Shown in pieces: positions 4,039-29,142 of a DNA stretch of 37,213 bases (position 1 is the first letter of the stretch; each line of letters begins with the position of its first letter). This stretch comes from a virus. The notes below the pieces were generated by a model. That model worked only from the letters and a program-made list of their open reading frames with translations. It had not been told where the DNA came from and did not search any database. Made by a program: the position numbers and the translations under genes. The stretch is from the IMG/VR virus record IMGVR_UViG_3300038566_000025, positions 1 to 37,213 of that record; one strand, 5' to 3'.

Positions 4039-6021
4039 CTATTGATCCTCACTTGATGTAACCGTCATTGTCGCATCAGCAAAAGTAGTTATTGACCTAC
4101 CTGCTGCACTGTTGTGTCGAATACCGATAGCGTAAGTTCTACCATCGCCACGGAGTGTCCATGAAGGATTCAAAATGTTAGTACCTGCAACAGCAGTAAA
4201 CATAGCTTTTCTAGACGGTGCACCATTGATCAGTAAGTGACATTCAATAGAATCACCGGCTACCATACCTTGTAAACCGAAATTACATTGTAGTAAATAA
4301 TTTCTACCGTCATTGGGTTTAGCGTTACCAGTTGCTAAATCAAAGATACTATTAGAACCTTCGAGTGATGCGTTAAAATTAATTAATGTATCAGTATTAG
4401 GGCTAACGGTTAACCCTGTTGTACGTCTTAATACACTGTAGTATTTATTCATCTTTGTTAGACGATAAGGTGTAGCAAAACCTGAACGCTCTAACTGTGG
4501 ACTATCCATGATTGCACGAACACCACCAGCACCTTTAGCAATGATTGTTATCTCAGCGAGAATGCGAACTACATTAGCATCAGGAACAAAAGCCTGAGAA
4601 ATTTCTAGCCGTTGTCTATTACCTGCGACTGTGAATGTTTTAGACACTGATGCAATTGTGACATTAGATACATCCTTAGCATACAGTGCCAGTTTAACAT
4701 CAGTGTTGGTTGATGCTAATGAAGTGGCATATATGCTGAGACAAAAAGGTGTTAGCTGATTCAACTTAGTGAATTCATAGTTCTGACTTAAAATAGCGGT
4801 TTCACCACCGACACCTGCACCACTGATTAAATCAATAGTTGCACCACCTTCATCATCATTAATATTTAATGTCGGTGTCACTAACGTGTTAGGGTTATAA
4901 GACCATTTGTACGGTGCTGTATCATCCGCATTGATCAGTTTGAAACCACTATTAACTAACAGGTTCTCTTGATGTTTGACACTCACATCTTTATTCAGAC
5001 CCCAGTAATTGCCGACCCATTCTGACGGGTTCATCACAACATAAGTGTCTTTGATGTATTGCATCAAATCTGTCATGTAAGAAGGTAAAGTGTGAGCATA
5101 AAAACAAATATACGCTTCATAAGCTCTTGCTTGATCAACGTAAGCTTTTGCCTCATTTAGTGTAATAACTTCCGTACCGAAAGAATCAGTAAGGGCAATC
5201 CTTGTCAGATTGTATCTGTCATCACCGAAGTTATTATTTGCTGTAATACCAGCACCTGCACCGACAGAACGGATGAAAGCAAAATCAAAAGACTGTTCAA
5301 GTTGCGGTCTGAATTTAGCATCAAGTGTTGAACTTGGTGCAACGAAACCACGTGGTAAAAAACCGAATTGACTAAATTCAGTTGCTGATGTTTTCAACAA
5401 GTTTTCACCGTATGTCAAATCAACAGCACTGTTAAGGACAAGTGAGTTCATTGAGTGACTTAACAATTCACCGTTTACATTTTTACGAAAATCAAGTGCT
5501 TCTCGCATTGTGACAAAATCGTAACTTGTAGCCATACCTGAATGATAAATAGCCAAACTTGTTTTAAAATCTTCAGATACAGACACAGGCATCAAGTCAT
5601 CTTTTACAGTTTGGTTAGCATCATCATAAACAAGTGATACACCACCAAAACGGTTAACAATACGCTTCTTCAGTGATAATGTTGGTATCGCTGTACTTTG
5701 ACGAATATCAATACCGTCTGGTGTAACAGATGATGTTAGTACAACATCAAAGTAACTGAATCCACCATTACCTGTTGTTATCTCGCTTACAAGAACAACG
5801 TGACCCTCTTCAATATCAGAACGATTCAAAGCATCACTAATAGTATCAGAATCTTTGATAGTCACATCTTTCAATCGAGCATGTTTAACACCACCTGGTG
5901 TGACACCATCCCCCATGTGAATGCTATTATCAGTGGTGTTAAACCACAGTTCACCGATGGCTGGTGTACCAGCTAAAATCTCAGCATTAGTACCACGACG
6001 GTGTTTTACTTGTGTAGCCAT
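4039..6021 (-). CDS. Tail fibre / receptor-binding protein with NodB-like deacetylase domain
   Basis: A 660-residue virion protein for host-surface contact. Residues 1-45 carry the common phage fibre head motif (MATQVKHRRGT ... GELWFNTT ... MGDGVTPGG). About residues 125-335 look like a polysaccharide deacetylase (NodB, CE4) fold: SLVYDD at 129-134, SHSMN at 188-192, FLPRGF near 221 and a late FYAHTLP. CE4 enzymes normally have HSxxH, but here the second histidine is serine (HSMNS), so metal binding and activity are doubtful. Residues about 353-530 resemble a carbohydrate-binding jelly roll, and the last 130 a trimeric tip domain. An ATG 21 bases further upstream overlaps the previous gene; the chosen ATG has GGGAG eight bases before it. 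Confidence 0.85.
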   Translation of the reverse strand: MATQVKHRRGTNAEILAGTPAIGELWFNTTDNSIHMGDGVTPGGVKHARLKDVTIKDSDTISDALNRSDIEEGHVVLVSEITTGNGGFSYFDVVLTSSVTPDGIDIRQSTAIPTLSLKKRIVNRFGGVSLVYDDANQTVKDDLMPVSVSEDFKTSLAIYHSGMATSYDFVTMREALDFRKNVNGELLSHSMNSLVLNSAVDLTYGENLLKTSATEFSQFGFLPRGFVAPSSTLDAKFRPQLEQSFDFAFIRSVGAGAGITANNNFGDDRYNLTRIALTDSFGTEVITLNEAKAYVDQARAYEAYICFYAHTLPSYMTDLMQYIKDTYVVMNPSEWVGNYWGLNKDVSVKHQENLLVNSGFKLINADDTAPYKWSYNPNTLVTPTLNINDDEGGATIDLISGAGVGGETAILSQNYEFTKLNQLTPFCLSIYATSLASTNTDVKLALYAKDVSNVTIASVSKTFTVAGNRQRLEISQAFVPDANVVRILAEITIIAKGAGGVRAIMDSPQLERSGFATPYRLTKMNKYYSVLRRTTGLTVSPNTDTLINFNASLEGSNSIFDLATGNAKPNDGRNYLLQCNFGLQGMVAGDSIECHLLINGAPSRKAMFTAVAGTNILNPSWTLRGDGRTYAIGIRHNSAAGRSITTFADATMTVTSSEDQ

Positions 6022-6022
6022 G

Positions 6023-6730
6023 TTATATACTCCCGTAATCAAATTGGTCGTTCACCGAGCTGGTAACTAAACCGTAATCTATAAAACTTTCAGGATCAAA
6101 CTCAGGTGCTGAACTCATCCGATTATCAATCACTTCTGTGACCTGAAGTTGCGGCATGTAATCATCAGACTTCTGACTGTAAGGACCTGCTAACGGTGCT
6201 GTCATTGTATCACCGTCGATGTTCGCATAAGCAGCATCGGTATCAAAATTCTCAATACCTGATTCATCTTGATTCCATCTGAGAACTTTACCAGCGTCAG
6301 GATCTTCAAGTGATAACGGAAGTGGACCTGTATATGAATCTGATAAAGTAAAAGTCCTAGTAAGTTTATCAAGGATCTGCTGAATCAATAATGTCAGCTT
6401 ATCCATTGCATTTTCATGTAAATCGGGGAAGAATGGTCCTTGTGACGTGAATGCTGTCAACTGAGTTTCTTCAAAATTTGATCGAATAAACCATTGATAA
6501 CCGGTGGGTAAAGCACCTGCTGTTCGTGTTATAGTTCCACCTGCATCATTACCAACACCAGTGACTGTGTAATCACTATCAACAGTCAACAGTGTTTCAA
6601 CACCAGTGTCATCAGTTTCATATACACTGACTTCACTTTTGTCAAAAATCTTAAATGTATAACTGAAGGTGTCAGCAATATCATTCCCATCATAAGGACC
6701 TGATGTAATTTTTTTACTGTTAACTGTCAT
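6023..6730 (-). CDS. Tail fibre adaptor, T7 gp17 N-terminal-like
   Basis: The first 115 residues match the virion-attachment domain of T7-type tail fibres: YDGNDIADTFSYTFKIFDK, a DSDYTVTGVGNDAGGTI strand, then FIRSNFEETQ and FPDLHENAMDKLTLLIQQIL. The rest is low in hydrophobic residues, probably a linker or docking stalk. At 235 residues it lacks any receptor-binding body, so it likely acts as an adaptor joining the tail to the separate fibre encoded next (one base away). A TTG start 12 bases further upstream would lie before the ribosome binding site; GGAG six bases before ATG 6730 fixes the start there. Confidence 0.85.
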   Translation of the reverse strand: MTVNSKKITSGPYDGNDIADTFSYTFKIFDKSEVSVYETDDTGVETLLTVDSDYTVTGVGNDAGGTITRTAGALPTGYQWFIRSNFEETQLTAFTSQGPFFPDLHENAMDKLTLLIQQILDKLTRTFTLSDSYTGPLPLSLEDPDAGKVLRWNQDESGIENFDTDAAYANIDGDTMTAPLAGPYSQKSDDYMPQLQVTEVIDNRMSSAPEFDPESFIDYGLVTSSVNDQFDYGSI

Positions 6731-26185: not shown

Positions 26186-26213
26186 ATAATAGCATAACAC
26201 GAATCAATGTCTA
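26186..26213 (-). promoter_or_regulatory. Possible sigma70-like promoter for the head genes
   Basis: On the minus strand TAGACA (26213-26208), a 16-base spacer and TATTAT (26191-26186) give two near-consensus hexamers. They lie between the large-terminase stop and the MCGG protein, in an AT-rich gap of about 60 bases. It could boost expression of portal and capsid genes. It lacks the dyad found in the early promoters. Confidence 0.4.
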
Positions 26214-27728
26214 TATGTACTCATCAGAGTCCATTGCACCTAACGGATTGTAATCACGTCGGTCTTGATTGCGAACATACGGGTTATGATCGAGATGTCC
26301 ACGTGGTACTTCACGCTTTGGTACTGGTTCAGCAAATGTCAGATATAACGCATCAGCCCAGTCAGGTGATACACCAAGTCGCTTCTTCATGTCCTTCTTA
26401 CGTTCAAGCACCAGTTGGTCTTTATCATTGTGTGCGAACTCTCGTGCTGTCAGTTCTACTTCAAGCTGTGGGTCATTAGGTATCGCACCACCATCTAATA
26501 TCCACTGACGACAACGTGAACCCATCTCAGCAGTGCGCGACTTGAAGTGCTTCACGTCAGCAGCATTGTCACCGAAACCAACATCAATGACATGGTAACC
26601 GAGTTGACGCAACCTATCAGCAACAGGTCCACCCATTGACCCTTTATCCATGAAGCTAACATCAGGTTTATGTCGATCAAGTATCATGGTAAGCAGTGAC
26701 ACGACTTTCATTGAATCACGTGACTTCTCACCTGGTATCTTATAAACCTTCTCAGACTTAGCATCTTTACCACGTCTGAACTGAATCATGCAGTTATCGT
26801 CACCACCACGTGCCATGTCAATACCACAGATCAACGGGTCATCACCAAGGTACGCACCTGAACCACGACGCATTGCATCATAAACTGCATCAGATGGTAT
26901 GAACTGCATATCACCACCTTTAGGGAACATACCCCGTACACGGACACGCACAAAGTCACTATCTTCACCGAAGTCATCAACCCATTGTTGGATCAATCGT
27001 TTGTTCGTCATCTTAGCTTTACGACTGTCAATCTGTCTGGTGATCCATCGGTGACTGTTCTTCCTGAAACACTCATAGAATGAACCATTGTTACGTGTAG
27101 GGTTACCGAAACAGATGTGCATAGGTTCACCATCGGTCAAACCACCTTTGGCAACTTCCCATATCTTTTCAGGGATAGCAGATGCTTCATCGAATATGTA
27201 GAAAGGTGTTGAATCAGCAGCATGAAGACCAGCGAAACCTTCTGATGCTTCTTCACGTGATGTCAGTGCATCAACCCGCCATGACTTAGGGTAAGCACGA
27301 TGCACCAGTGACATCGACGACATTTCAAACCAGTGGCTAGTGATACACATTGAATGCCATTTAGCTAACTCTGACATAGTTTTAGTCTTGAGCTGTTCTC
27401 CGGTGTTAGCTGTGACCACACCTTTACATTTAGGTCTGGTAGACATGATCCACATGATAATCATTGCAGTGAATGCTGATTTACCGATACCGTGACCTGA
27501 TGACACTGCAACTTGAATAGGGTCAACTGCATCAACACCGTTGAATCCACGTTCTGCAACTTCGTCACCGAGTGTTGTTAATAACTCTCGTTGCCATTCA
27601 TCAGGGTCATCGAAACCTTGCAACGGTGTACCAGGTTCACCCCACGGAAATGCAAACAGTACGAACCCAAGTGGGTCACTATAAAACTGACTTATCTCTT
27701 CTGCTAAATCTACATCAATCTGGCTCAT
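26211..27728 (-). CDS. terL: Terminase large subunit
   Basis: The 505-residue DNA-packaging motor. The N-terminal ATPase has Walker A SSGHGIGKS (76-84) and Walker B FYIFDE (176-181), followed by the coupling-type segment CFGNPTRNNGSFYE (206-219). The C-terminal RNase H-like nuclease shows CGIDMARGGDDN with Asp304, FMDKG with Asp361, and SPDWADALYLTF with Asp456/Asp459, the three acidic metal-binding sites. It hydrolyses ATP to move DNA through the portal and cuts the concatemer. Translation starts at ATG 27728, behind AAGGTGA and only 28 bases after a strong folded RNA element. Confidence 0.97.
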   Translation of the reverse strand: MSQIDVDLAEEISQFYSDPLGFVLFAFPWGEPGTPLQGFDDPDEWQRELLTTLGDEVAERGFNGVDAVDPIQVAVSSGHGIGKSAFTAMIIMWIMSTRPKCKGVVTANTGEQLKTKTMSELAKWHSMCITSHWFEMSSMSLVHRAYPKSWRVDALTSREEASEGFAGLHAADSTPFYIFDEASAIPEKIWEVAKGGLTDGEPMHICFGNPTRNNGSFYECFRKNSHRWITRQIDSRKAKMTNKRLIQQWVDDFGEDSDFVRVRVRGMFPKGGDMQFIPSDAVYDAMRRGSGAYLGDDPLICGIDMARGGDDNCMIQFRRGKDAKSEKVYKIPGEKSRDSMKVVSLLTMILDRHKPDVSFMDKGSMGGPVADRLRQLGYHVIDVGFGDNAADVKHFKSRTAEMGSRCRQWILDGGAIPNDPQLEVELTAREFAHNDKDQLVLERKKDMKKRLGVSPDWADALYLTFAEPVPKREVPRGHLDHNPYVRNQDRRDYNPLGAMDSDEYI

Positions 27729-27756
27729 TGGTCGTCACCTTCGTCACCGATAGTGG

Positions 27757-27825
27757 AAAGCTCACCACTGGTGCAATGAAGCAGGGTGACGGTCTGCTGT
27801 TGGCACGTTATCAGTGGTGAGCTTT
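27757..27825 (-). other. Strong inverted-repeat / structured RNA element between terS and terL
   Basis: AAAGCTCACCACTG (27757-27770) and CAGTGGTGAGCTTT (27812-27825) are a perfect 14-base inverted repeat around a 41-base centre. The centre folds further on the minus-strand RNA: GUGCcAA pairs with UUGCAC across a bulged C, and AGCAG with CUGCU around a nine-base loop. It fills most of the 106-base gap between the terminase genes. There is no U-tract after it, so an ordinary terminator is unlikely. Options are a translation or processing element for terL, a packaging recognition site, or a small RNA. Confidence 0.85.
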
Positions 27826-27834
27826 ATTATGCTA

Positions 27835-28341
27835 TCAGAAGAATGATGGTTCGTCATCTTCATCACGATCTGCAACACGTCTACGTGCAGCAGCTAACTT
27901 ATCAACTACATCAGCATCGGTGCTGACTTTAATCTTGTCAGCAGCAAACGCATCGACACGTTTATGCTTACCCACCATGCTGAGTGCAGTGTTGCTTGCT
28001 GTGATGTTACCCTGCTGACGTGCAATCATGTGGTTATCCACCATCTCATTGAGCAACCAGTCAGCGTCAATCATGTTCACTTCAAGACGTTGTTGAATGA
28101 TGTGTTCAATAGCGTCACTGATTTCCTGCTTCTCAAGTAGCTTGTAGCCGTGGTCAGGATAATACCCCGATGCTTCTGCTGCACGTCGCACTGCAAAGTC
28201 TTTCACATACTCCACCACGAAGTTAGCTTCTTTCGGTGGTAGCTTGATGATGTCTGCAATAGTAATTCTCTTCATATTTGAATCCGTCACAATACCTAAT
28301 TGATCACATAATAACTCAAACCTTGACAATTCACCAATCAT
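27835..28341 (-). CDS. terS: Terminase small subunit
   Basis: A 168-residue protein that recognises phage DNA and recruits the large subunit. Residues 30-85 fit the small-terminase DNA-binding part (PPKEANFVVEYVKDFAVRRAAEASGY ... AIEHIIQQR), and the following ADWLLNEMVDNHMIARQQGN and SMVGKHKRVDAF are typical of the Terminase_2 family. The C terminus is acidic and ends FF. The ATG at 28341 has a GGTGA site three bases away; an alternative start at Met23 would remove a non-conserved leader, so the exact start is uncertain. It is the first gene of the late operon. Confidence 0.9.
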   Translation of the reverse strand: MIGELSRFELLCDQLGIVTDSNMKRITIADIIKLPPKEANFVVEYVKDFAVRRAAEASGYYPDHGYKLLEKQEISDAIEHIIQQRLEVNMIDADWLLNEMVDNHMIARQQGNITASNTALSMVGKHKRVDAFAADKIKVSTDADVVDKLAAARRRVADRDEDDEPSFF

Positions 28342-28736: not shown

Positions 28737-28768
28737 AGAAACAAAGAAACCGCCCGAAGGCGGTCACT
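28737..28768 (-). terminator. Rho-independent terminator of the last early unit
   Basis: Minus strand: ACCGCC-TTCG-GGCGGT (28764-28749), a perfect six-pair stem with the stable UUCG loop, followed by TTCTTTGTTTCTG. It lies 25 bases after the stop of the 36-residue gene and separates the early leftward genes from the non-coding region and late operon. Confidence 0.88.
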
Positions 28769-28789: not shown

Positions 28790-28900
28790 TTATATCCACA
28801 CTTTCCACGTCCCTTTATTCCATATACACCGTTTCACTGTTACCGACTTGGTGAACGCCTCACGCAGAGCTTCACCCAGGTTCACTGATTCAATTAACAT
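28790..28900 (-). CDS. 36-residue small protein, unknown
   Basis: A short frame from ATG 28900 to TAA at 28790, giving MLIESVNLGEALREAFTKSV followed by a basic, tryptophan-rich end (VKRCIWNKGTWKVWI). Support: GAGGTG lies four bases before the ATG, the start overlaps the end of the zinc-ribbon gene by seven bases in the style of this genome, and a strong terminator follows at once. The composition (amphipathic helix, then basic aromatic tail) would suit a small binding or inhibitory protein, but nothing identifies it. Confidence 0.6.
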   Translation of the reverse strand: MLIESVNLGEALREAFTKSVTVKRCIWNKGTWKVWI

Positions 28901-29142
28901 GTGACACCTCTTATCTCATCCACTGTTAAACGAGTACAATCACCGCAACGACTATCCGGTGCAAGCCATTCAGTAGTTTTGTCGCATTGGTAGCACGTCA
29001 ATGAAGGTAGACCTTCATCATACCCACGTTCATAGTCGAACGCCCACTGTGACCCTTCAGGGTACGGGTTCTTGTGCTCACCGTTTCGACCATCGGTTTG
29101 ACCTACTTTATAGGCACGAGTTATCTTCTTGCGTTTAGTCAT
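28894..29142 (-). CDS. Small zinc-ribbon protein with RMF-like N terminus
   Basis: An 82-residue protein in two parts. Residues 8-44 (RAYKVGQTDGRNGEHKNPYPEG ... WAFDYERGYDEG) follow the glycine-spaced pattern of ribosome modulation factor and related short phage domains. Residues 50-69 have CYQC and CGDC separated by 13 residues, a probable zinc ribbon. It may bind RNA, ribosomes or a host protein, but the function is unknown. AAGGAG is six bases before the ATG. It lies between the methyltransferase-like gene and the 36-residue gene in one early unit. Confidence 0.8.
   Translation of the reverse strand: MTKRKKITRAYKVGQTDGRNGEHKNPYPEGSQWAFDYERGYDEGLPSLTCYQCDKTTEWLAPDSRCGDCTRLTVDEIRGVTC

Follow-up and report, generated by a model that had tools for sequence, protein, structure and literature searches.

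A conserved RNA hairpin between the terminase genes of Vibrio and other marine phages with a loop complementary to the terL Shine-Dalgarno sequence

The window analysed here, that is the whole stretch of 37,213 nt of the IMG/VR virus record IMGVR_UViG_3300038566_000025, carries its terminase genes on the minus strand. The small subunit gene terS (27835-28272; a Terminase_2/phrog_51 protein) ends with its stop codon at 27835, and the large subunit gene terL (26211-27728; matching phrog_2) starts at 27728, leaving a gap of 106 nt. The terS open reading frame (ORF) itself opens at 28341, and its homologues begin near the ATG at 28272. Upstream of terS, a terminator-like hairpin (GACCGCC TTCG GGCGGTT; 28748-28765, minus strand) might separate the upstream genes from the packaging operon, and an 82-aa ORF (28897-29142, minus strand) upstream of the terminase genes gave a weak match, below cut-off, to ribosome modulation factor (RMF; E 2e-4). 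The window also encodes a tail-region protein with a Major tropism determinant N-terminal domain (Mtd_N; 4042-6042, minus strand).

A first-pass annotation, made from the sequence of the window, had described a perfect 14-base inverted repeat with nested stems between terS and terL. We confirmed that it lies within the gap, with perfect arms at 27757-27770 and 27812-27825 separated by 41 nt, an arrangement that by a rough estimate (50 spacings at each of 37,213 positions, divided by 4^14) chance would produce about 0.007 times per window. Folding of the 101-nt region gave z = -4.8 on the plus strand and -5.6 on the minus strand, and on each strand none of 200 shuffles was equally good. As both genes are on the minus strand, the mRNA form of the hairpin is the reverse complement (sense 27825 to 27757), within the terS-terL mRNA. 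Read in this direction, the 14-bp stem P1, with its 5' arm AAAGCTCACCACTG at 27812-27825, is followed by a five-base bulge, the 4-bp stem P2 (5' arm GTGC, 27803-27806), an internal loop, the 5-bp apical stem P3 (5' arm AGCAG, 27794-27798) and the nine-base apical loop ACCGTCACC (27785-27793), after which the chain returns through CTGCT of P3 (27780-27784), GCAC of P2 (27771-27774) and CAGTGGTGAGCTTT of P1 (27757-27770). The nested stems, bulge and nine-base loop that had been proposed are thus all present on folding; P1 is further supported by the inverted repeat and covariation and P3 by the alignment of relatives, while the pairing of P2 is weakly conserved.

An intrinsic terminator was rejected, in agreement with the first-pass annotation: no U-tract was found 3' of the hairpin in the window or in its relatives, and the hairpin was absent from a terminator scan. 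The accompanying statement that no coding frame uses the element holds in the sense that no gene is supported there, but a mechanical plus-strand ORF (27572-27820), itself without support as a gene, does overlap the repeat. The terS-terL gap contained no match to a sigma-70 promoter. A TGnTAnnCT extended -10-like motif was seen 3' of the terS stop in many relatives, and similar motifs occur about 11 times in the Vibrio phage PS25B.1.

The same architecture is common to about 27 distinct phages, comprising Vibrio phages and IMG/VR marine phages whose TerL proteins are 64-91% identical. The near relatives are the Vibrio phages PS25B.1, 1.021.A-C, 1.185.O and MZH0603 together with marine IMG/VR contigs. 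Nearly all members of a first clade (TerL 76-91% identical) and many members of a second group (TerL 64-76% identical) have the architecture at the same place. A covariance model built from nine hairpins found one sense element per record in whole-record scans of the window, PS25B.1 and MZH0603, and the element is therefore not a dispersed repeat. In more distant terminase loci, of which a large set was scanned, the model gave nothing convincing, and no such element was found in the loci examined from phages with TerL below about 64% identity, epsilon15-like phages and bacterial prophages; bacterial genomes contained TerL relatives only at 54% identity or less. At both gathering and permissive thresholds no Rfam family matched, and the only hits were chance-level (E 1.4-5). 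Searching viral contigs with the pattern ACAGNCCGTCACCCTGT returned hits that were for the most part unrelated and whose covariance scores follow from the search pattern itself, and a first MAFFT alignment (A3) was mis-trimmed; both were dropped. Four relatives (L041, L042, L245 and L249) lack the element despite intact terminase genes, two of them (L041 and L042) having terS-terL gaps of only about 10 nt or little more, and in another (L278), which still has a hairpin, neither the loop motif nor the GGTGAC site described below is left. On the TerL tree the element requires two to three changes, and a single ancient origin followed by several losses, such as those in L041 and L042, would fit its distribution.

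Comparison of the stems between lineages showed that pairing is retained while sequence is not. In a 12-sequence alignment, 99.3% of P1 cells are paired, with two-sided changes in 15 of 22 pairs. The covariation score for the same sequences was 0.439, against 0.246 after shuffling; it was reached by none of 500 shuffles, and slid controls scored far lower. RNAalifold, unaided, recovered P1 and P3, with 13 of 17 pairs covarying. The sequence of P1 is almost wholly replaced between lineages: two pairs of related phages differ on both sides at 9 of 11 (L018/L021) and 7 of 12 (L008/L017) P1 positions, and P1 is still fully paired in each. Compensatory changes and equivalents in close relatives, whose absence the first-pass annotation had named as speaking against a function, are therefore both present, and compensatory change in so many lineages refutes a chance inverted repeat or functionless inherited palindrome, to which we assign a negligible probability. 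In addition, among non-Watson-Crick combinations read on the mRNA strand we counted 29 G-U and one A-C, in 24 related elements whose stem arms were delimited by hand with the RNA folding in view. This asymmetry indicates selection on RNA rather than on a DNA palindrome, since a cruciform or a protein-bound palindrome would lack a G-U bias and the signal marks the RNA of one strand. We conclude that the inverted repeat is a conserved RNA structure on the mRNA strand.

These observations also bear on the suggestion that the repeat is a packaging recognition site. A pac or cos site read by TerS, with the GTCACC/GGTGAC repeats as putative binding sites, would suit an element that adjoins terS and in which one 6-mer occurs in three copies, one of them inverted. 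Such a site would be expected to conserve DNA sequence, whereas here it is the pairing of the stem that is conserved; the G-U bias points to RNA, the spacing of the repeats varies, and L041 and L042 do without the element. We consider a DNA packaging site very unlikely.

In contrast to the stems, the loop (T/A)CCGTCACC is nearly invariant among the relatives: when the second group is aligned, no stretch other than CCGTCACC is invariant, and every loop of the first clade contains CGTCAC. The loop is complementary to GGTGAC(G), and the window contains two copies of GGTGACG on the minus strand, both missed by the first-pass annotation. Copy 1 (27748-27742) lies 8 nt 3' of P1, and a copy of the motif often recurs 8-12 nt 3' of the stem in the relatives. 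Copy 2 (27739-27733) is the Shine-Dalgarno (SD) sequence of terL, with six bases separating its GGTGA from the ATG. GGTGAY (GGTGGC in one case) occupies the terL SD position in 26 of 27 element-bearing phages with an uninterrupted gap, before an ATG, GTG or TTG start, which in two phages (L233 and L234) is that of a small ORF that overlaps terL. Among relatives without the loop, a GGTGAY-type SD is found in 4 of 15, which gives a Fisher p of 3e-6 for the association, from a hand count in which related sequences are treated as independent. For most members the predicted energy of the duplex of loop and SD is about -9.6 to -11 kcal/mol, that of L009 and L020 being weaker, compared with -7.2 for the pairing of anti-SD and SD. 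The single exception among the 27, L256, has GGTGAGG within the 3' arm of P1. In another relative, L267, the large hairpin is missing; a simple hairpin of 12 bp lies about 60 nt before the aligned start of terL instead, and its 3' arm contains GGTGAC, the terL SD. In L267, and perhaps in L256, the same SD may thus be covered by other means.

Part of this complementarity is to be expected, since these phages favour AGGTGACG as an SD, AGGTGAC(G) being the SD of 7 of 47 other PS25B.1 genes; three hairpin-less relatives (L247, L263 and L250) retain a GGTGAC SD. Covariation between loop and partners is thin because the loop hardly varies: for loop and copy 1 the permutation p was 0.02 when only Watson-Crick pairs were counted and 0.43 with G-U included, and for the helix of loop and SD it was 0.25. 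Matched changes of loop and copy 1 were observed in two phages, TTCGTCACT/AGTGACGAA (9 bp) in L020 and CCCGTCACC/GTGACGGG (8 bp) in L004.

Because the hairpin loop can pair with the terL SD, the element probably sets the amount of motor protein. The reading that we favour, and hold to be reasonably probable, is that of a cis-acting translational attenuator of terL. The long three-part hairpin of the intergenic mRNA would display the loop ACCGTCACC, whose last seven bases would pair with the GGTGACG of the terL SD and form an H-type pseudoknot, with a two-base crossing loop and a 7-bp second helix abutting P3 without an unpaired base before it. The pseudoknot would hide the ribosome site and restrain translation of terL. 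The linker between P1 and the SD (17-22 nt) should be able to span the stem, and that between P1 and copy 1 (8-12 nt) would be barely long enough, unless the helix is bent at the bulge. Copy 1, which like its counterparts just 3' of the stem in many relatives may serve as an alternative partner (decoy), could pair with the loop instead and leave the SD free; the two copies might then work as a toggle, or might do no more than adjust the level. The first-pass annotation had listed a regulatory RNA controlling terL among its possibilities, and it is this suggestion that compensatory change in close and more distant relatives, the G-U strand bias and the match of loop and SD support well.

A more elaborate form of this control, a two-state packaging switch, is in our opinion a rather unlikely extension. 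The loop would alternate between the decoy copy 1 and the terL SD (copy 2), and a packaging cue, for instance TerS accumulating or being drawn onto DNA, would flip the state, so that the motor ATPase is made in time with packaging. This RNA may also be of the kind of terS-terL junction RNA that is sensed by bacterial CBASS cyclases.

A protein could read the loop instead. In such an operator, TerS, TerL or some other protein of phage or host would bind the loop and repress or protect the message, the match to GGTGAC being secondary; the T4 gene 43 operator is an example of a loop read by a protein (PMC3014915). Stems that turn over around a nearly invariant loop are what this explanation expects, and TerS is needed for the proper length of the CBASS-triggering cabRNAs in staphylococcal phages (PMC10686824). 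Further support comes from four phages with a homing-endonuclease-like gene between the hairpin and terL (L010, 1097-1818; L016, 4445-5167; L011, 3082-3444; L035, 3834 onward), in which the loop is kept and the next gene or terL has no GGTGAC SD. Persistence of the loop in these phages could reflect either recent insertion or reading by a protein. An operator leaves unexplained, however, the GGTGAC at the SD in 26 of 27 phages, the matched changes of loop and copy 1 in L020 and L004, and the alternative SD-covering hairpins of L267 and L256, and we regard it as possible but distinctly less probable than attenuation by the loop. As for the inserted genes themselves, they comprise the HNH type, one HNH gene being truncated, and another type that has Cys-rich repeats; the terL SD has been replaced, and the same extra hairpin with GCTGGCACGTCACC, resembling the loop of the element, occurs with two unrelated endonuclease types.

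Two further roles for the RNA were considered. Hairpins that serve as RNase III-type processing or stability sites are used by T7-type phages, and the element, which is long and paired, lies between two late-operon genes and has a freely changing stem sequence, would suit a site cut by RNase III or protecting the 5' end of a terL mRNA, which would separate the levels of the terS and terL messages. This explanation predicts neither the conservation of the nine-base loop nor the match to the SD, and we think it improbable. An RNA with a role in the motor, which the first-pass annotation had also raised, would be freed from the terS-terL message to become part of the motor, in the manner of pRNA. 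A conserved structured RNA at the terminase genes, with a loop able to pair with another RNA, is in line with this idea, but no pRNA family in Rfam matched, and the four relatives noted above have intact terminase genes and no element. We judge a motor RNA extremely unlikely. The phi29 pRNA resembles the element in being a structured phage RNA linked to the packaging system and differs in that no match to the element was found in Rfam.

The attenuator reading has several partial precedents. In riboswitches of the preQ1-I and SAM-II types, the loop of a hairpin pairs with the SD or close to it and forms a small H-type pseudoknot. The pairing proposed here is of that kind, and unlike those riboswitches the element has a much longer three-part stem, a different loop, no Rfam match and no known ligand, and stands before a terminase gene. 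In phages T4, T2 and RB69, an mRNA pseudoknot 67 nt upstream of the start of gene 32 nucleates cooperative binding of gp32 in autoregulation (PMC3014915); the element would likewise be an H-type pseudoknot upstream of a translationally controlled phage gene, but its sequence and gene are unrelated, and its loop is itself complementary to the SD. A 2010 review raised the possibility that no viral pseudoknot other than that of T4-type gene 32 is used in translational autoregulation (PMC3014915). Ribosome sites of early T4 transcripts (gene e and others) are hidden in the stem of a hairpin (PMC3014915), an intramolecular masking comparable to that of L267 and perhaps L256, whereas the main form of the element would use a distal loop. 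The nearest precedent at the junction itself is the cabRNAs of staphylococcal phages, structured RNAs from the terS-terL boundary that have no sequence common to one another and are known as CBASS triggers (PMC10686824), while the element is a conserved family of Vibrio and other marine phages, known here from sequence. We found no earlier description of a conserved terminase-controlling RNA element in the open-access literature searched. Masking of the SD is a known kind of control, and its application to a terminase would be new. If correct, the attenuator would show by what means marine phages of a broad group adjust the amount of a powerful DNA motor and nuclease relative to its partner subunit. 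In staphylococcal phages, CBASS immunity is triggered by structured terS-terL RNAs, and for RNAs of this sort the element would be a candidate that is both defined and conserved.

Several relatives have variant gaps. In L244, about 140 nt with a tRNA-like appearance (GTTCGATTC...ACCA) are inserted between the element and terL, with GGTGAC on both sides; ARAGORN found no tRNA in the insert, and the tRNA reading was dropped. In L233 and L234, the small ORF between the SD of the element and terL is conserved (MKPEYFHPMFYGNYCLMQCYCAYWGITL-like), its stop overlaps the terL start, and it is a possible leader peptide. Finally, the hairpins in the gaps of L238 and L242 are of another kind: their apical part contains GAAGGTGAAT-CATCGGCA, as though loop and partner had exchanged roles.
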